Source: an uncultured Bacteroidota bacterium
GTDB taxonomy: Bacteria > Bacteroidota > Bacteroidia > Chitinophagales > Chitinophagaceae
Direction of reading: 5' to 3'
DNA length: 35,120 nt
Assembly (NCBI GenBank): GCA_903929195.1
Contig: CAIYTT010000063.1
Span: forward strand, 1 to 35,120
Positions 1,404 through 13,123 of the stretch are shown piece by piece. Each line of letters starts with the position of its first letter. Position 1 is the first letter of the stretch. A program made the position numbers and the translations under genes. The notes under the pieces were generated by a model. It saw only the letters and a list, made by a program, of their open reading frames with translations. It did not search any database and was not told where the DNA came from.

Positions 1404-2216
1404 ATGAGTATGCATAAACCAAAGATTAAATTAGTTGCTTATCTATTGGGTGAAAAAATTCAGCTTAAAAATTTTAAAGCAGATTACCAAGGTATTCTTC
1501 ATTATAGTTCTTCTTACGAAGTATTTATTAAAAAAAGTGAATATACCTATATCTATATTCAAAATTCCGGTGAGGTTGCTTTTTCTGATTGTGATGAAAC
1601 AACAATAAACGAATTTATTACATCCATAAGGCCTTTTGTGGATGCACTGGTGTTGCATGGTAAGGAATATAAAGAGGACTGCTATATAGAAGTAGATCCG
1701 GAACAAAAGCTCAATTTTGATTATAATTCTTTTATTGTGCCTGAGATAAACGCAGATGTAATTAAAATAGCCTTACTGAATGTTTGCCAATCGGTTGCAT
1801 TAGATTATTTTACTGAATTATCGCAAAGTTTTTTGCACGAAACGGTCAAGTTTACAAGCGAACTTGAAATAAATGGCAAACTTTCCATATCAAATACTCA
1901 GGTAATGAAGTTTATTGGCAAAACAATGAATATACAGAACCGTATAACCGATAATCTTTATTTTATGGATGCTCCGGATACCGTTTGGGATAACGAATAT
2001 CTGTCGCATATAAACAATGGACTATCTAAAATATTTAATCTCAAAACCCGGTTCAGAGAAGTAGAATATACATTGAAAATTATTGACAATAATTTGCGAA
2101 CGTTTGCTCAATTGGTTCAGAATAGGGATAACAAAAAACTAGAATTAATAATTATTTTTCTCATTTTTTTCGAGTTATTGAATACTTTATTCGGGAAATT
2201 TTTCTTACGGTTCTAA
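1404..2216 (+). CDS. RMD1/YagE family (DUF155) membrane protein
   Basis: Membrane-anchored protein of the RMD1/DUF155 family (270 aa). The family signature is clear: KFIGKTMNIQNRITDNLYFM (169-188), then DAPDTVWDNEYL (189-200), and a helical stretch at about 205-245 rich in charged residues. A single hydrophobic helix at 247-267 with a short tail ends the protein, as is usual in this family. Bacterial members have no defined biochemical role; yeast Rmd1/Rmd8 and the human homologue RMND1 are linked to sporulation or mitochondrial translation. It lies 14 bp after the PSD-like gene and is probably co-transcribed with it. The start could also be Met3, 6 bp downstream. Confidence 0.82.
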   Translation: MSMHKPKIKLVAYLLGEKIQLKNFKADYQGILHYSSSYEVFIKKSEYTYIYIQNSGEVAFSDCDETTINEFITSIRPFVDALVLHGKEYKEDCYIEVDPEQKLNFDYNSFIVPEINADVIKIALLNVCQSVALDYFTELSQSFLHETVKFTSELEINGKLSISNTQVMKFIGKTMNIQNRITDNLYFMDAPDTVWDNEYLSHINNGLSKIFNLKTRFREVEYTLKIIDNNLRTFAQLVQNRDNKKLELIIIFLIFFELLNTLFGKFFLRF

Positions 2217-4716: not shown

Positions 4717-5106
4717 TTATACAATATTAGCAGCAATTAATTCTCGCATCAAATTTATAGAAACAGGTTTTAGCAAATAATCTTTAACACTCTTAAAACT
4801 GAGTGCTTTAGTTCGCTCCCGTTCTTCTAATGAGCTACTAAACATATAGATATTACTTAACGTTTTTAAATTTGGATACCTACTCTCAAACTCCGAAATA
4901 AATTGCCATCCATCCATAATAGGCATGTTAATGTCTAAAAGTAATAGTTTTGGTAATGGGTTATTTTTATTTATATTAAAATATTCTAAGGCTTTTTCTC
5001 CATTCCAAAAAGTTTCAACTACTATTTCAGGGTCTATTTTTTTTATTATTTTACTTAATACCATCTGATACATCTCATCATCGTCAATTATAAATACCTT
5101 TTTCAT
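4717..5106 (-). CDS. Single-domain response regulator (CheY-like)
   Basis: A stand-alone receiver domain (129 aa) with no output domain. The acidic pocket is IIDDDE (Asp8-Asp10), the predicted phospho-acceptor is Asp58 in LLLLDINMPIMDGW, a serine pair (90-91) fills the T/S position, and Lys113 in LLKPV is the conserved lysine. It is the last gene of the four-gene operon, 5 bp after the histidine kinase, so it is almost certainly that kinase's partner. With no DNA-binding or enzymatic domain, the signal must be passed on by protein contact or through a phosphorelay encoded elsewhere. Confidence 0.9.
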   Translation of the reverse strand: MKKVFIIDDDEMYQMVLSKIIKKIDPEIVVETFWNGEKALEYFNINKNNPLPKLLLLDINMPIMDGWQFISEFESRYPNLKTLSNIYMFSSSLEERERTKALSFKSVKDYLLKPVSINLMRELIAANIV

Positions 5107-5111
5107 ACTGT

Positions 5112-7130
5112 CTATTTTATATGTATTTTAAATGTAGTTCCTTTATTTAATTCACTAAATACCTCAATACTGCCTCCTAATGCCTCTACCTGATATTTTG
5201 TTAAAAATAATCCTATTCCTTTGGCATCTTTATTGCCATTAAATGTTTTATACATACCAAATAGTTTTTCACTATTTTTCTTCATGTCTATACCTATACC
5301 ATTATCAGCAATTTCTAATACCCAATTTGTATTGTCGCGGTAGTTTTTATCTTTATAACAGTCTATAGTTACAATTGGCTGCCTATCCGGGTGGCTGTAT
5401 TTTATAGCATTAGATATAAAATTGAGTACTATGCTATCTATATATGCAGGATTGTAATTTATAATAATATCCTTATTCACATTATTTATAATTTTAGCAT
5501 TTTTAGTAGCTATTTGCGTTTTTAAAATATCAATTGCATGGTTTATGCTATTACAAAGTTCAATAGGAATAATATCTACACTTACCGGATTTTGCATCGC
5601 TACCACATCATTTAAATGATACATTGTTTCATCGAGCAATTTAGATGCTTTGTGCAATAATTCAATAACTTCCTTTCTTTCAGTGTCATCTTCAGCTTCG
5701 TCGTATATGCTTAATAAGCTATGTATATTTACAGCATGCATTCTTAAATTATGAGACACAATGTAAGAAAAGTTGAGTAATCTTTTATTTTGGTCGGTAG
5801 CAATTTTATAAGAGTTATTTAAATCTATCTCTAATGTTTTACTTTCTGTAATATCTTGCACCGTGCCAAACATTGTTATTGGCATACCGTTCTCATCAAC
5901 TTTAAATTCGCCTATTACACTTACCCATCTTTCTTGTCCGTCATTATGTCTTTTTACTATGTATGTTTCGGTAAATCGTTCTTTATTTTTAATAGATTGT
6001 AGTCCATTTTCGGCTAAAGTATCTTTAAATTCAGGTAATATTAATGATTTCCAACCTAAGTTTGTTTTCAAATAATTGCTATCAATACCAAGTATTTCAT
6101 CGAGTGTGGCAGAGCTATGGAAAACTGCATTTTTAATGTCGTAAAAATAATTACCAAATCTAGCAAGCTTTTGTGCATCTATCAACCTTTTATCTTGCTC
6201 TATTAATGCTTCGTTTGTGCGTTTAAGGTCGTCTCGCATTCTTAATAATGCTTTACCGAATTTATCTTTTTCAGATAATAAATTAAAATTTGCATTATAG
6301 TTCCCTTTCCCAATCTGTTCCGAAAAATTTATTTTTTGAATTAGGCTTTCTATCATTTTGCTTATAGCATTATGTATTTCCCCTATTTCATCTGTTCTCT
6401 TTATTTCATTCAATGCTACAACATTACCTAAAGACATATCCGAAATAATTTCGTTTAAATTTAATATAGGTTTTACAACAAAAAATTTGGAATACCGCAT
6501 AGAAAAATAACTTACGAGTATTATAATTATTAATGTTATAAACAAACTTATATATACATAATTATAAGATGCTGCAATTAAGTTTTGTTCCTTTTCTATA
6601 CTTGAGTTTTTTATCTCTATTATTTTTGTATATAGTTTATCATTATCATTAATTTGTTTTTTTATTATTTCATTTAAATCACTTGCTATATTTACCGTTT
6701 CATCATTTAAATAGGTTTCCGAATTGTTTAGTAATTGTGTTATTTTATTTATTGTATCAATAATCTCTGTATTGTTTGTATTTATTTTATCTATTAATTC
6801 TAATTCTGCATCATTATGCCATTTTTTTTTGTGTTGCAGTATGTTACTGTCTAATTGAGGATAATCATTTTGTAATATATGCTGCAATCTGTCTTTATCT
6901 TTATTATTTGTAACATATACCCATGTTTCCGTAAGCTTTTTAATTTCTTGCATTAATTGCTTCATATCTTTAAGGTTCTGTATAGAAGGCAAATTAATAG
7001 TTCGCATTTCTGTATTAGACCTACTGTTCATGTTTAGCACATACAAACAATACGAACCACTTATTATTGTAGAAATAATAATAATAAAGTAGGTTGTACT
7101 CAATTTCTTTGCTAAACCTGATTTTTCCAT
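5112..7130 (-). CDS. Membrane histidine kinase with HAMP and PAS domains
   Basis: Sensor histidine kinase (672 aa). Helix 1 is at about 12-33, then a largely helical periplasmic region (34-189) and helix 2 at about 190-213. A HAMP domain (214-267) is followed by a second HAMP-like segment (about 272-305, IGKGNYNANF then FGKALLRMRDDL). A PAS domain with its PAC tail covers about 320-430, ending FGTVQDITES. The H-box is NFSYIVSHNLRMH (453-465) with His460. The ATPase domain has LNFISNAIKYS (569-579), DNGIGI (609-614) and GIGLFLTKYQVEALGG (638-653). The residue after the histidine is Asn rather than Glu/Asp, as in many Bacteroidota PAS kinases. It starts 1 bp after the receptor stop codon. The topology parallels YfiN, whose HAMP domain feeds a diguanylate cyclase instead of a kinase. 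Confidence 0.9.
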   Translation of the reverse strand: MEKSGLAKKLSTTYFIIIISTIISGSYCLYVLNMNSRSNTEMRTINLPSIQNLKDMKQLMQEIKKLTETWVYVTNNKDKDRLQHILQNDYPQLDSNILQHKKKWHNDAELELIDKINTNNTEIIDTINKITQLLNNSETYLNDETVNIASDLNEIIKKQINDNDKLYTKIIEIKNSSIEKEQNLIAASYNYVYISLFITLIIIILVSYFSMRYSKFFVVKPILNLNEIISDMSLGNVVALNEIKRTDEIGEIHNAISKMIESLIQKINFSEQIGKGNYNANFNLLSEKDKFGKALLRMRDDLKRTNEALIEQDKRLIDAQKLARFGNYFYDIKNAVFHSSATLDEILGIDSNYLKTNLGWKSLILPEFKDTLAENGLQSIKNKERFTETYIVKRHNDGQERWVSVIGEFKVDENGMPITMFGTVQDITESKTLEIDLNNSYKIATDQNKRLLNFSYIVSHNLRMHAVNIHSLLSIYDEAEDDTERKEVIELLHKASKLLDETMYHLNDVVAMQNPVSVDIIPIELCNSINHAIDILKTQIATKNAKIINNVNKDIIINYNPAYIDSIVLNFISNAIKYSHPDRQPIVTIDCYKDKNYRDNTNWVLEIADNGIGIDMKKNSEKLFGMYKTFNGNKDAKGIGLFLTKYQVEALGGSIEVFSELNKGTTFKIHIK

Positions 7131-7131
7131 T

Positions 7132-9213
7132 TTATTTTTTTCCGGTATATTGTATTTTGTAATTTAGTTTCAAAAAGAACTCCCTCCCTAAACCGGGTAA
7201 CGGGGCGTGCAAACTATTATATGCTTGCAGATATTGCTTTCTTTCATTGGTGATGTTATTAATACCTACCCCAAAAAATAAATTTTTCGCTATATTAGTA
7301 CACCCAATATATAGATTAAATACGGCTTGCGGTTTTATCATTTCCAATAATTTTTCTTTTCCACTTGAGTCGGTAGAAACGTCAGCATATCGCTTATCTA
7401 AGTAATTAATAGATGACGTTACAAAAAAGTGTTTCCCAATATTGATACTACCCATTACGGTAAGTTTATTTTGTGCGTTACCTAATGTTACAGTTCTATC
7501 ATTTATTACAATATTAGCACTATCTACATTTTTATTGCCAATTGTAAAATAAGAATATATAACTTTTATAAAGCCTAATTTTGTTTTATAGTTATACTCT
7601 ATTTCTGCACCCTGGCTACCAATAATTTTATTTGTATTTCTGTATCCGTCCGGGTCTCCATTTATTACCGAGTCTGTTTTTACAAAATAACGAATTGCAT
7701 TTTGTGTGGTTATATCAAATAGATTTACAGATAAAAACATGTTTTTACTTAATTTAAAACCGGTTTCAAATTCTATTGTTTTAGATTGTTCCGGTTTTAA
7801 TTGTATTTTATCTATTTCATATTGAATATTTTCGATAGATGGTGCCCTGAATGAAGATGCATATAAAAGTTTAAAATTTACAATGCCTACTTTTTTAGTA
7901 ATACCTAAACGAGGATTAAATGCACTGCCAAAAGCTGAACTAAAGTCGTATCTGGCACCTAACGTAATATTTGCAAAACGTGTATTTATTAGCACCTGTG
8001 CAAATGGTGCATAATTAATATAGCTAACATATTTAGAATTATCAGTAATAAACAGATTGCCATTTGTATTAAAACCTTCATCATAATTGCCCTCAAAACC
8101 AAATTGTGCATTTACCCAATAAGTAGGCTCCCATATTGTGGTTATATTTAATCGGTATCTATTTATATTTACTTTATAATAACCATAGCTGGAGTCAATA
8201 GGTGCCGGGTAACCATCAAACACATAAGGGGAGGAGAATTTATAATTAAACTTTGTTTGAAATTCAAATTTTTTATTAATTTTTTTTGTATATTTAATTT
8301 CAGTCATATAACTCAAAAAATCGCATGGGTAAGGCTGTGATAATGAACTTATATACCCATCTCTGGTAGTTGTTCTGTAATTGTCGTATATAAATGTAAA
8401 TGAAAAATGTTTATACCCAATATTGAAATTAAAAAATTGAGGATTCAAATTCGAGTTATTAGTCATATTAAAAGACTTGCCATAAACATCTGTATAGTCA
8501 AAATTACTTCTCTGTCCTCTACCTATAAATCCGGACATTGCATAATTAAAATCATTTATTTTATTGCCTATTGTTAAAGTAAGGTCTTGCCGGGAATAAC
8601 TATTAGCTGTTTGTGCAAGCAACCCTTCTACTGAAATTCCTTTTATTTCATCTCCTTTTTTTGTAATAATGTTTATAACAGCATATTCAGCACAACCACC
8701 ATAAATAGCTGAGCCGGGACCTCTTATTACTTCAATCTTTTTTATATTGCTAATTGGGTAATGATTGCCTAATTGTAACGATGAGTATGCATTTTCGTTC
8801 ATTTCCTGCCCATCAAACTGCAATAATAAATTACCTTCATTGGCCCACATACCCCTAAAAGAAATACCTACAACACCTTCTACATCTACATTAAAATCAA
8901 AGCCCGGTATTAGTTTAAATACATCCATTAATTCTCTTGCTCCGCTTTTTATTATATCGTCTTCTGTAATTACAGATATTATTGAAGGTGTTTTTCTTAA
9001 AGGTAATGCCTTATGCGAAGCCGCTTCTATTGCTTGGCTTATATTTTTTTCTATATCTGTAGCTGCATACCTTGATTTTAATTTTGATAATTCTTCTAAT
9101 GAATAATCAGACAAGTCTGTACTATCGGTAATAGTAATAGTATTTGCATTTTTTTGACAAAAAGCGTTTTCAGCAAACAATAAAACAATAAAAATAAATA
9201 CGATTCTAATCAT
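7132..9213 (-). CDS. TonB-dependent receptor
   Basis: Outer-membrane TonB-dependent receptor (693 aa). The signal peptide is residues 1-19 or 1-20 (ending AENAFCQ). The plug domain covers about 70-188, with RKTPSIISVITEDDI, then LIPGFDFNVDVEG, IRGPGSAIYGG (163-173) and NIITKKG. A beta-barrel with many aromatic strands follows to the C-terminus. There is no N-terminal carboxypeptidase-like domain and no SusD partner, so it is not a SusC-type glycan importer. The stretch SLEELSKLKSRYA before the plug recalls the SLEELMNIEV motif of a TonB receptor subgroup. It sits between the yfiR-like gene (3 bp) and the kinase gene (1 bp), which suggests a signalling rather than a purely transport role. The ligand is unknown. 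Confidence 0.88.
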   Translation of the reverse strand: MIRIVFIFIVLLFAENAFCQKNANTITITDSTDLSDYSLEELSKLKSRYAATDIEKNISQAIEAASHKALPLRKTPSIISVITEDDIIKSGARELMDVFKLIPGFDFNVDVEGVVGISFRGMWANEGNLLLQFDGQEMNENAYSSLQLGNHYPISNIKKIEVIRGPGSAIYGGCAEYAVINIITKKGDEIKGISVEGLLAQTANSYSRQDLTLTIGNKINDFNYAMSGFIGRGQRSNFDYTDVYGKSFNMTNNSNLNPQFFNFNIGYKHFSFTFIYDNYRTTTRDGYISSLSQPYPCDFLSYMTEIKYTKKINKKFEFQTKFNYKFSSPYVFDGYPAPIDSSYGYYKVNINRYRLNITTIWEPTYWVNAQFGFEGNYDEGFNTNGNLFITDNSKYVSYINYAPFAQVLINTRFANITLGARYDFSSAFGSAFNPRLGITKKVGIVNFKLLYASSFRAPSIENIQYEIDKIQLKPEQSKTIEFETGFKLSKNMFLSVNLFDITTQNAIRYFVKTDSVINGDPDGYRNTNKIIGSQGAEIEYNYKTKLGFIKVIYSYFTIGNKNVDSANIVINDRTVTLGNAQNKLTVMGSINIGKHFFVTSSINYLDKRYADVSTDSSGKEKLLEMIKPQAVFNLYIGCTNIAKNLFFGVGINNITNERKQYLQAYNSLHAPLPGLGREFFLKLNYKIQYTGKK

Positions 9214-9216
9214 GCT

Positions 9217-9741
9217 TTACCTAATTAATACTGCATTATTTAAAATTTGTTCACTTAATACCAAGCCTCTCAACCTACAATTGCGAATGCTTAATTGATA
9301 TTCTGTTTTGTAATCTTTATCCTCATCAATAAAAAAGGAAATGCATGCACCTAAGTGGCTCATGTTTTGTTTTTCTGTAATTATTAATACGGGTAAATTT
9401 GTAGTTAGTTTATCTACTTTTTTTAATTCATCGCTTGCCGATTTGGCAATTATTACTACATCGCATTCCTTAGACTCTAAAATGGAAATTTGTTTAATGT
9501 TATAGGTGATACTACTATTTTTCTTTTTAGCTATCAGTGTTTTTAATTCGTCTTCAACCGGTGTATTTCCAATAATACCTATTTGCAGATTCGATTTTTT
9601 TTGAGACCAATTGGTGTATTTTATAAAGTTGTATATATAGACGGAATTTTCTTTATAATCAAAATTTTGGCAAAAACTTTTAGTGGCAAAAAGATTTGTG
9701 AAAATAATTATAGTAAGATATAGTATTCTGCCTTTTTTCAT
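9217..9741 (-). CDS. YfiR-like periplasmic protein (DUF4154)
   Basis: Small exported protein (174 aa) of the YfiR/DUF4154 family. A signal peptide ends near SFC-Q25. The mature part has the family features: YIYNFIKYTNW near the start, IGIIGNTPV, the block CDVVIIAKSAS, then LPVLIITE, and a C-terminal LGACISFFIDED...SIRNCRLRGLVLSEQILNNA. Mature cysteines are Cys93, Cys133 and Cys155. In Pseudomonas YfiR is a periplasmic inhibitor that binds the membrane cyclase YfiN and is titrated by the outer-membrane protein YfiB. Here it heads an operon with a TonB receptor and a histidine kinase, so by analogy it may restrain the kinase. That role is inferred. Confidence 0.8.
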   Translation of the reverse strand: MKKGRILYLTIIIFTNLFATKSFCQNFDYKENSVYIYNFIKYTNWSQKKSNLQIGIIGNTPVEDELKTLIAKKKNSSITYNIKQISILESKECDVVIIAKSASDELKKVDKLTTNLPVLIITEKQNMSHLGACISFFIDEDKDYKTEYQLSIRNCRLRGLVLSEQILNNAVLIR

Positions 9742-9971: not shown

Positions 9972-10688
9972 TTAATTTCTCAACCAGTTAATCAAGTCGT
10001 TCAATTCTTTATTGTTTATATTGTGTCCTTCTTCATATTCTTTATAGGTGGCTTTAATCCCTTTGCTTAAAAGATATGCATTGGCATCTTTTGCATATTT
10101 AATGTTTAATACCTCATCGTTAGTGCCGTGAGCTATAAAAACGTTTAAATGTTTTAGTTGTGCATTAGTTACTGCAACCGGTTTTACCTCATCAAGCAGC
10201 CTTCCGCTAAGTATGGCTATGCCTTTCACAATGTCCGGTTTTGTTAAGCCAACACTGTAACTCATAATAGCACCTTGGCTAAAACCGCATAAATAGACCT
10301 GATTAGCATCAAAAGATTCTAAATCTTTAAGTTGTGATATAAACTTAATAATTGCTTTTCTACTTTCTTCTGCTTGTTCTTTATTAATTACAGGCTTACC
10401 GGTAGCAAAATCTACCTGATACCAAGCGTAGCTGCCTGCACTTAAAGTTATAGGTGCTCGTGCAGAAATAACAAGAAAATTATCTGGTAATTTATCAGCA
10501 AACGAAAACAAATCGTTTTCGTTACTGCCCACACCGTGCAATAATAGTATTAGTGGCGGCTTAGCAATTTTAATTTTAGGTACTCTGGTTATATAGTGCA
10601 ACACAGGCTCAGTAGCTTTATTATAAAAAGTTTTCGCATTGTTAGTTATAGTAATAAATAAGAATAACAATACTAATAATTGTTTCAT
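9972..10688 (-). CDS. Exported phospholipase/carboxylesterase-type hydrolase
   Basis: Alpha/beta hydrolase of the phospholipase/carboxylesterase (dienelactone-hydrolase-like) type, 238 aa from the chosen ATG. A hydrophobic signal peptide begins MKQLLVLLFLF. Key elements are the oxyanion-hole region LILLLHGVGSNENDL (46-60), the nucleophile Ser137 in CGFSQGA, Asp191 in HGTNDEV and His222 in EEGHN. A longer frame begins at 10754, but that start would overlap the upstream gene's end and put a basic extension before the signal peptide, so I reject it. It lies 49 bp after the ndpA-like gene and may be co-transcribed. The substrate is unknown; the catalytic triad is complete. Confidence 0.82.
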   Translation of the reverse strand: MKQLLVLLFLFITITNNAKTFYNKATEPVLHYITRVPKIKIAKPPLILLLHGVGSNENDLFSFADKLPDNFLVISARAPITLSAGSYAWYQVDFATGKPVINKEQAEESRKAIIKFISQLKDLESFDANQVYLCGFSQGAIMSYSVGLTKPDIVKGIAILSGRLLDEVKPVAVTNAQLKHLNVFIAHGTNDEVLNIKYAKDANAYLLSKGIKATYKEYEEGHNINNKELNDLINWLRN

Positions 10689-10737
10689 TTTTAATATTTT
10701 ATACATATATAAAATAGACTGTATTAAAATTAAAGGC

Positions 10738-11784
10738 TTATTCTTCTTCCTCATAATAGAGTTTATAAAATTTTCTACCGTCTTTGTCTATGCCTTGTTC
10801 TATTAAATCTTTATTACCATGTATATATACATGAAAATTTTTATCTAATTTAAGTACACTTTTGAAAACCCTTGTTTGTTTTTTTACAGCACTTGTAGAT
10901 ATTTCAAAACTATCTGCTATTTCAAAATTATTTTCAGTCTTATACTGTTCATCAAAACTTCTAAATGATTCTATAAGTCCCTTATCTTGAAAAACAGTTT
11001 CTTCAAAATCCTTTTTATCAAAATTATCATTGTTTTTAAAATATTCCAAAGACTTATTTAAATAGTCAATTTTGTCTGCTTTTGATACCTCATATTCTTC
11101 GGCTAATTTATTGGCTACAAAATCTTTTGCTATACTTAAAAATTGCTTTGTTTGTAAAAAATCATTACTGATAGGTTTTAGTTTCAAAAAATCATCTTTC
11201 CAATACTGTGCTTCTTCCGCCTTGCGAGTAGTATCTATAAGAAGAATTTTATATCCGCATTCTTGCTCTGTATTAAAAATGACACAACCTTTATCCGGGC
11301 TTTTTATCTCATAACCAAAATCGTGATTAATTTCATAGCTTGCTTTTCGGCTGTTCATTTTTATAAACGGCACATTCGTTTCCGATTTAAAAATACCTAT
11401 TGCATCCACAACCTCATTATCCAGCATTACATTGGTGAAGTAAACAATATTTAATTCCCCTTCTTTTATTTTAGGGTGCATGGAATGGTCGTATAGTAAT
11501 TTAGCAATGTTTTGAGATACTGCAATAAAATCACCCATATCTGCAAATAAGCCGGCAACTAATTTATACACATCGTTAAATTCCAAACCTATAGGATGGG
11601 TGAAGCTATAAAACTCTTCGGGTTTTAAGGGTGTTAGGAACAATTTTAATAAATAAGAACAAGTAATACTATCTAAAATAGATTCTTCGTTTGAAAGATG
11701 ATATTTTTCATCATTTAGTTTATTCCCTACATGGTGTGTAATAATAGTATCAAGTTCTACTTCCGTAGTATCTAAAATGGTCAT
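10738..11784 (-). CDS. Nucleoid-associated protein, NdpA/YejK type
   Basis: Cytoplasmic protein of the 37-kDa nucleoid-associated family (NdpA/YejK), 348 aa, about the usual length. Family-like features include the early block ITHHVGNKLNDEKYHLS, the TYLL-like segment around SYLLKLFLTPLKPEEFY, and the VYFTNVMLDNEVVDAIGIFK strand region, where the family is best conserved. The middle part is rich in Lys/Asp/Glu and helical. E. coli YejK associates with the nucleoid and interacts with topoisomerase subunits; the role in Bacteroidota is not established. It carries no helix-turn-helix. It borders the accessory stretch that begins just upstream. Confidence 0.8.
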   Translation of the reverse strand: MTILDTTEVELDTIITHHVGNKLNDEKYHLSNEESILDSITCSYLLKLFLTPLKPEEFYSFTHPIGLEFNDVYKLVAGLFADMGDFIAVSQNIAKLLYDHSMHPKIKEGELNIVYFTNVMLDNEVVDAIGIFKSETNVPFIKMNSRKASYEINHDFGYEIKSPDKGCVIFNTEQECGYKILLIDTTRKAEEAQYWKDDFLKLKPISNDFLQTKQFLSIAKDFVANKLAEEYEVSKADKIDYLNKSLEYFKNNDNFDKKDFEETVFQDKGLIESFRSFDEQYKTENNFEIADSFEISTSAVKKQTRVFKSVLKLDKNFHVYIHGNKDLIEQGIDKDGRKFYKLYYEEEE

Positions 11785-12539: not shown

Positions 12540-12740
12540 ATGAGCAATACTGAATTATTAGCACAATTTTCAACCTTGCCCGATCATTTAAAAAATGAAG
12601 TGGCTGATTTTATAGCATTCTTACAACAAAAAAACAAGCCTAATATACCAAAAGAACGAAAATTTGGAGGTTTGAAAGGTATGTTCATAATGTCTTCGGA
12701 TTTTGACGAACAGCTGGACGATTTTAAAGAATATATGTAA
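12540..12740 (+). CDS. DUF2281-type antitoxin (VapB role)
   Basis: Small acidic protein (66 aa) of the DUF2281 type, a group of antitoxins found before PIN-domain toxins. It has the helical N-terminus LAQFSTLPDHLKNEVADFIA, a basic linker, and the characteristic FGGLKGMFIMSSDFDEQLDD tail, which in this kind of antitoxin is thought to occupy the toxin active site. Its TAA overlaps the toxin ATG by one base (TAATG), so the two are translationally coupled. It has no recognisable DNA-binding domain, so autoregulation is uncertain. The frame is intact, unlike the neighbouring toxin-antitoxin remnant. Confidence 0.85.
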   Translation: MSNTELLAQFSTLPDHLKNEVADFIAFLQQKNKPNIPKERKFGGLKGMFIMSSDFDEQLDDFKEYM

Positions 12741-13123
12741 TGAACTATTTATTAGATACCCATACCATTATTTGGTTTATGAATGGAGATAAAAGCCTGC
12801 CATCGTCTGTAAAAAGTAAAATACAGAATATTAATAATGGTTGTTTTTTAAGCATAGCAAGTATTTGGGAGATTGCAATAAAAACCAATCTTGGTAAATT
12901 AATCTTAAATGGCCCATTCAAAGAAATTATTCCCTTTCTCCTTGAAAATAATATTGAGCTATTGCCGATAAATTTTGAGCATTTACAAAAATTACTTATA
13001 CTAGAATTAATACATAGAGACCCTTTTGATAGAATAATTATAGCCCAAGCAATTGAACAGCATCTTACAATACTTACAAAAGATGACAATTTTATAAAAT
13101 ATCCTGTCAACTGTTTTTGGTGA
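12740..13123 (+). CDS. PIN-domain toxin, VapC family
   Basis: VapC-type ribonuclease toxin (127 aa), full length. The PIN-domain acidic residues are in place: Asp6 in YLLDTHTIIWF, Glu44 in SIWEIAIKTNLGKL, Asp94 and Asp97 in HRDPFDRIIIAQA, and Asp115 in TKDDNF. VapC toxins cleave specific tRNAs or rRNA; the target of this one cannot be read from sequence. The subgroup with HRDPFDR and a DUF2281 partner is common in Bacteroidota and Cyanobacteria. It is coupled to the antitoxin gene by TAATG. A strong hairpin terminator follows about 110 bp later. Confidence 0.9.
   Translation: MNYLLDTHTIIWFMNGDKSLPSSVKSKIQNINNGCFLSIASIWEIAIKTNLGKLILNGPFKEIIPFLLENNIELLPINFEHLQKLLILELIHRDPFDRIIIAQAIEQHLTILTKDDNFIKYPVNCFW

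Follow-up and report, generated by a model that had tools for sequence, protein, structure and literature searches.

A YfiR-like protein may couple a TonB-dependent receptor to a histidine kinase in Bacteroidota

Does a compact operon in an uncultured bacterium of the Chitinophagaceae (Bacteroidota) encode a route by which an event at the outer membrane reaches a cytoplasmic regulator? Most of what is known about signalling from an outer-membrane receptor to the cytoplasm concerns SusCD and sigma/anti-sigma systems. The DNA analysed, the 35,120 nucleotides of contig CAIYTT010000063.1 (assembly GCA_903929195.1) from position 1 and hereafter called the window, carries within 4717-9741 four genes, all on the minus strand, whose order from 5' to 3' is DUF4154/YfiR protein, TonB-dependent receptor, histidine kinase and lone receiver (Pfam). 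The features that bear on the question are:

9217..9741, minus strand: YfiR-like periplasmic protein, 174 amino acids (aa); DUF4154 at 5.5e-21, structural model, matches to YfiR crystal structures
7132..9213, minus strand: TonB-dependent receptor, 693 aa; Plug at 8.4e-17, NCBIfam receptor-family matches far under their cut-offs
8953..9111, minus strand: N-terminal extension of the receptor, containing a SLEEL stretch and reaching to where the plug begins; a possible contact region
5112..7130, minus strand: membrane histidine kinase with a PAS domain, 672 aa; HATPase_c, PAS_3 and two predicted transmembrane helices
6558..7034, minus strand: kinase segment (about residues 33-191) predicted to form a periplasmic four-helix-bundle sensor; model of residues 1-290 and fold matches
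4717..5106, minus strand: lone receiver (response regulator without an output domain), 129 aa; Response_reg at 1.6e-16 and the acidic residues

A reading made earlier from the sequence only had described four tightly packed genes with gaps of 3, 1 and 5 base pairs (bp), which the open reading frame (ORF) coordinates and Pfam confirm; yfiR and the receptor gene, 3 bp apart, are in the same frame. On balance we favour the view that the four genes make up one trans-envelope signalling relay, with YfiR controlling the kinase and the receptor controlling YfiR.

If the genes work together, they should travel together. DUF4154 occurs in 15 of 147 genomes of the window's family and in 39 of 395 genomes of the phylum. 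The survey comprised 60 regions, in which genes were called by a basic ORF finder and identified with profiles that had been grown starting from the proteins of the window; these regions cover 62 of the 72 DUF4154 places outside the window, and nine of the ten omitted places score below 29 bits. YfiR was detected in 59 Bacteroidota neighbourhoods, where, leaving the YfiR gene itself uncounted, a receptor was present in 41, a kinase-type sensor in 47, both in 33 and neither in 4. Control neighbourhoods, which consist of genes at least five away in the same regions and hence share region and composition rather than being genome-wide, contained a receptor in 2 of 195 cases, a kinase-type sensor in 10 and both in 1. 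Two loci that fell outside the 59 through ORF choice (L048, L103), as well as one of the ten omitted places that was examined later (G209), each encode receptor, YfiR and CHASE8 kinase on inspection. YfiR, receptor and kinase are linked beyond chance, and the adjacency of DUF4154, receptor and kinase on which the sequence-only reading had been staked beforehand is conserved (33/59 against 1/195). That the four genes are mere neighbours without a common function is very improbable: YfiR-like proteins can stand elsewhere, as the four neighbourhoods with neither receptor nor kinase indicate, but the enrichment over controls already contradicts such a view, as do the fusions and the two fixed gene orders described below.

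Among 90 distinct loci, the order YfiR-receptor-four-helix-bundle (4HB) kinase was found in 20 and the complete four-gene order, receiver included, in 6, while YfiR and a CHASE8 kinase stand alone, with no receptor, in 10. Pfam confirms the four genes in an environmental strain, Flavipsychrobacter stenotrophus RB1R16 (L128). In five CHASE8 loci, the gene next after a lone receiver again encodes kinase or receiver domains. The four genes form a tight, recurrent unit.

Passages of two papers (PMC3375315, PMC4887326) describe how YfiR of Pseudomonas keeps YfiN inactive and is itself removed by YfiB, and part of a review has HmsC of Yersinia acting likewise on HmsD in a redox-dependent manner (PMC8846402). 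We infer that the YfiR of the window binds the periplasmic sensor of the kinase and sets its activity, probably holding the kinase off as YfiR does YfiN. The receptor, occupying the place that YfiB has in Pseudomonas, would bind a ligand or be worked by TonB, and its periplasmic face, perhaps the N-terminal extension, would draw YfiR away or alter it. The freed kinase would then phosphorylate the lone receiver, which would act through proteins encoded outside the operon. Argued from the conserved gene set, the action of YfiR on the kinase is quite likely, and that of the receptor on YfiR reasonably probable.

The operon resembles YfiBNR of P. aeruginosa and YfiR-DgcN-YfiB of Escherichia coli in the fold and family of YfiR, in its two-transmembrane inner-membrane sensor and in the inclusion of an outer-membrane protein, and CHASE8 is common to these systems and many relatives of the window operon. 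Unlike YfiBNR, the window has a receptor instead of the OmpA/PAL-like lipoprotein YfiB, a kinase (HATPase_c, PAS_3) with a receiver instead of a GGDEF diguanylate cyclase, and a sensor predicted to be a four-helix bundle instead of a CHASE8 (PAS-like) domain.

How well do the individual proteins fit such a relay? The DUF4154 match of the small protein (75.6 bits against a Pfam cut-off of 24.9) is accompanied by a model built on an alignment of 20 rows, with a predicted local distance difference test (pLDDT) of 85.0 and a predicted template modelling score (pTM) of 0.79. YfiR crystal structures are its best fold matches (Foldseek E 2.9e-9; VIA-align Z 16.8-17.6), and the predicted fold is that of YfiR. 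Next in the ranking come substrate-binding proteins, 3lkv at Z 13.2 and 3lft with L-tryptophan at Z 12.8.

The kinase contains HATPase_c (1.5e-15) and PAS_3 (8.3e-8) and has a 4HB_MCP_1 match (1.6e-4) under that family's cut-off, and its His460 falls in a nearly invariant alignment column. The earlier label of a HAMP/PAS kinase stood as regards PAS, but Pfam reported neither HAMP nor HisKA at E<=0.01 for the window kinase, and the HAMP label rests on relatives, in which HAMP and HisKA are each present in 33 of 37 scanned YfiR-neighbour sensors. Transmembrane helices are predicted at 14-32 and 192-210. The model of residues 1-290 (pLDDT 85.7, pTM 0.61, alignment of 18 rows) places helices at 6-72, 76-101, 107-133 and 143-233, and bears out the long periplasmic region that had been read from the sequence: about residues 33-191, helical throughout, form a bundle between the two membrane helices. 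The bundle resembles the sensors of chemoreceptors, NarQ, LytS and TorS (4k0d at Z 15.7, 1.7 A over 145 residues). The core of the kinase is conserved, and its periplasmic sensor is predicted to be a four-helix bundle. In the receiver, Response_reg extends over nearly the whole protein, with the acidic triad at 8-10, Asp58 and Lys113 present.

Two mechanisms could work, inhibition with release and ligand hand-over; the latter stays in play because the fold of YfiR resembles substrate-binding proteins and the bundle resembles TorS and LytS. In a ligand relay the receptor would import a ligand, YfiR would bind this ligand in the manner of a small substrate-binding protein, and the ligand-bound YfiR would dock on the bundle and switch the kinase, with no need for capture at the outer membrane. 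The precedents are TorT-TorS and XylFII-LytS, in which, as here, a periplasmic protein is found beside a kinase with a four-helix-bundle sensor, although YfiR is neither TorT nor XylFII. To our knowledge, these systems have no receptor partner. The fold ranking of YfiR is consistent with this alternative, and the fold matches of the bundle include LytS from its complex with XylFII (5xsd, Z 14.8) and TorS from its complex with TorT (3o1h, Z 13.3), but helical-bundle matches near Z 13 may reflect common architecture. P. aeruginosa YfiR takes vitamin B6 and L-tryptophan in the pocket for YfiB Phe57, yet only at 35 and 77 mmol/L, according to a passage of PMC4887326, and the YfiR-kinase fusions fit a ligand relay but do not need it. 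We regard it as a possible, if rather unlikely, account of the operon.

Control of the kinase by YfiR, part of the reading that we prefer, gains from the sensors found beside YfiR in relatives. There are 44 such sensors, five of them fusions and 39 separate, and 37 of the 39 were scanned (one is truncated and one is of 2017 aa); CHASE8 was reported in 24 of the 37 and HATPase_c in 34. E. coli DgcN/YfiN carries CHASE8 at 1.3e-33, and the Phe of its AAVVF stretch, which a section of PMC3375315 proposes as a YfiR-binding site, is kept in 36 of 36 segments from relatives in the CHASE8 alignment (by eye). Six loci fuse YfiR to the kinase (Pfam), five of them directly behind a receptor gene, in which YfiR and the kinase are joined by a long segment that has no recognised domain and by one transmembrane helix. 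These sensors and fusions agree with the earlier placing of the kinase in the position of YfiN, but the sensor of the window kinase and its relatives is of another, helical kind. As the window kinase has a four-helix bundle and no CHASE8, the contact known for YfiN cannot be assumed for it without more ado.

The proposal that the receptor stands where YfiB would is borne out most clearly by a locus on a metagenome-assembled genome (MAG) contig of the Helicobacteraceae (L162), which reads receptor-YfiR-CHASE8-HAMP-GGDEF-EAL, HAMP being under its cut-off, and ties the receptor to the classical YfiN frame. On an Opitutales MAG contig (L157:2175-13200), three consecutive receptor-YfiR pairs precede one CHASE8 hybrid kinase, an arrangement that looks as though signals from several receptors converged on it. 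Such loci bear on a further explanation, in which YfiR and the kinase cooperate and the receptor is merely a co-expressed transporter or pathway target outside the signal chain. Neighbourhoods without a receptor (18/59) and the 10 loci with YfiR and a CHASE8 kinase alone agree with it, and a passage of PMC4887326 reports that YfiR can sense redox state independently of YfiB. Against it, receptors accompany YfiR in 41 of 59 neighbourhoods but occur in only 2 of 195 controls; they are found with either gene order, next to fusions and also in MAGs from other phyla, and in L157 three receptor-YfiR pairs precede one kinase. We consider this explanation improbable.

Other arrangements were also seen. 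At five loci (L084, L155, L156, L158, L161) YfiR is followed by a secreted protein of about 300-305 aa and then by a 4HB-HAMP sensor. These clusters contain no receptor, and the sensors of L084 and L158 terminate in a SpoIIE phosphatase domain. The protein of about 305 aa was considered as a second outer-membrane protein and rejected, since at L084 and L158 it shows only weak TPR-type matches. At L137:4878-9690, the place of the kinase after receptor and YfiR is taken by a protein that looks secreted and combines TPR repeats with a SpoIIE phosphatase domain.

Gene order tracks sensor type. The 90 distinct loci comprise 20 of the order YfiR-receptor-4HB, 20 of the order receptor-YfiR-CHASE8 and none crossed, and the window belongs to a sister lineage with the order YfiR-receptor-kinase and a four-helix bundle where the other has CHASE8. 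On a YfiR tree of 73 rows, with 19 that lack a classed sensor and 3 that go with other kinases left out, the three sensor types (CHASE8, 4HB, fused) require 2 changes, the minimum possible, against a shuffled mean of 28.3. The window's own family (f1) has YfiR of both sensor types; therefore YfiR follows sensor type more than host, and the operon is inherited as a unit. At the YfiR position aligned to E. coli Phe144, which from alignments is taken for Phe162 of PMC3375315, raw counts that ignore kinship are F 22, I 8, L 4 and Y 1 for the CHASE8 type, F 6 for the fused type and L 16, Y 10, F 4 and V 1 for the 4HB type. In the alignment this position is hydrophobic throughout, with the residue identity shifted between sensor types.

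What does the receptor itself contribute? Pfam matched only Plug, with the barrel model not reported. As regards ligand class, all NCBIfam receptor families among the matches listed are far under their cut-offs. The window YfiR and receptor match the NCBIfam families TOL_0243 (YfiR-like; 1.1e-15) and TOL_0244 (TonB-dependent receptor; 1.8e-18, residues 61-203 only), but at 57.9 bits against a curated cut-off of 125 and 66.5 against 645, respectively. The adjacent locus tags in the two family names suggest that curators had noticed a YfiR-like/receptor pair. Parts of PMC6304351 report TOL_0244 up sevenfold on n-C28 alkane and credit its relative OmpS with alkane detection; by analogy, alkane is a lead only and not a ligand for the window receptor.

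Among the N-termini of the genome's 20 plug proteins, SLEEL occurs in the window receptor only, and most of the others start with a carboxypeptidase-regulatory-like stretch (by eye), a strict pattern for which flags just 7 of 28 receptors not adjacent to YfiR. A loose regular expression finds a SLEEL-like extension in 62 of 69 YfiR-adjacent receptors against 7 of 28 others; two of these seven (L048, L081) sit in YfiR loci. Near-full-length matches to an extension profile, meaning alignments starting at profile position <=5, were counted by eye in at least 32 of 395 genomes among the matches listed; the profile misses the window's own receptor (genome G000). DUF4154 is present in 24 of these 32 listed genomes against 15 of the other 363 (Fisher p 1.2e-21, both scans apparently covering the same 395 genomes), and of the eight without a DUF4154 match, one (G332) does have YfiR by the window-grown profile. 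On this correlative evidence, the extension may serve as a contact region. As a YfiR-specific docking motif it was rejected: in 14 of 18 extra regions, picked mostly because no YfiR was known there, receptors with the same extension have no nearby YfiR by the window-grown profile. The SLEEL motif marks a receptor group rather than a strict YfiR partnership. In one family (f29), loci L195, L196, L198, L199 and L200 have near-identical SLEEL-type receptors and no nearby YfiR by the same profile.

Several of these observations weigh against the relay. Receptors are missing from 18 of 59 YfiR neighbourhoods, and extension-bearing receptors are found without YfiR. With no CHASE8 (Pfam), the window kinase lacks the known YfiN interface, and the sign of regulation, inhibition, is carried over from Pseudomonas by analogy. 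The grouping of the 4HB-type YfiR proteins as one clade is weakly supported (76/0). Operon mates co-inherit anyway, and order and tree are no proof of binding.

Is the arrangement distinct from known systems? The earlier contention that it differs from Fec-type and SusCD-hybrid signalling held among the scanned proteins, in which no STN domain, sigma/anti-sigma pair or SusD was found. Both link a TonB-dependent receptor to gene control, as the window operon is proposed to do, but the window receptor has Plug only and no STN, unlike Fec-type systems, and Pfam found no sigma or anti-sigma factor among ten proteins scanned around the operon. In contrast to SusCD hybrids, there is no SusD or DNA-binding hybrid kinase among the scanned neighbours, and the receiver is separate and lacks an output domain. 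YfiN-type proteins with sensor-kinase outputs (YfiR-YfiN[PAS] modules), and YfiR control of kinases, were proposed in 2012 in section 12 of PMC3375315; like the window, these modules place YfiR beside a kinase in YfiN's frame, but the window kinase lacks their PAS-like/CHASE8 periplasmic domain. The YfiR half, with kinases, is hence already in print there. TonB does not appear in the main text of that paper, and in the open-licence PMC literature, mostly as titles and abstract openings, we found no description of a receptor-YfiR-kinase set or of a TonB receptor as YfiR's outer-membrane partner. The present analysis adds how widespread the set is among Bacteroidota, with the supporting statistics, as well as the fusions, the GGDEF-EAL bridge and the four-helix-bundle lineage.

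We lean towards a broader proposal, in which YfiR-like proteins would be general periplasmic adaptors coupling TonB-dependent receptors to inner-membrane sensor enzymes by a route distinct from Fec. The receptor-YfiR-sensor core would stay constant while outputs vary (kinase, GGDEF-EAL, fusion), and in the window's lineage the sensor domain would have been swapped between CHASE8 and four-helix bundle, with YfiR following. If so, a dedicated receptor-YfiR-sensor module adds a route into two-component and cyclic di-GMP control, and for YfiR, so far studied in envelope stress and redox control, a nutrient or other ligand becomes a possible input. Deletion of one small gene would then allow the signal of many Bacteroidota kinases to be tested.

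The window's genome comprises 4.19 megabases on 244 contigs, with one DUF4154 match and 20 plug matches. A sigma-70 promoter scan gave 29 matches against 40.2 in shuffled sequence; Bacteroidota promoters differ from the sigma-70 type. Upstream of the operon, across a gap of 230 bp, lies an esterase gene (9972-10754), and downstream a convergent VIT-family gene (Pfam). A gene for an NA37 nucleoid-associated protein (10738-11784, minus strand) overlaps the start of the esterase gene by 17 bp at its 3' end. Elsewhere in the window, a 127 aa ORF at 12740-13123 (plus strand) resembles a PIN-domain (VapC-type) toxin by eye, and a DUF155 (RMND1/Sif2-type) protein is encoded at 1404-2216 (plus strand) next to an ORF (244-1389) that resembles phosphatidylserine decarboxylase, also by eye.

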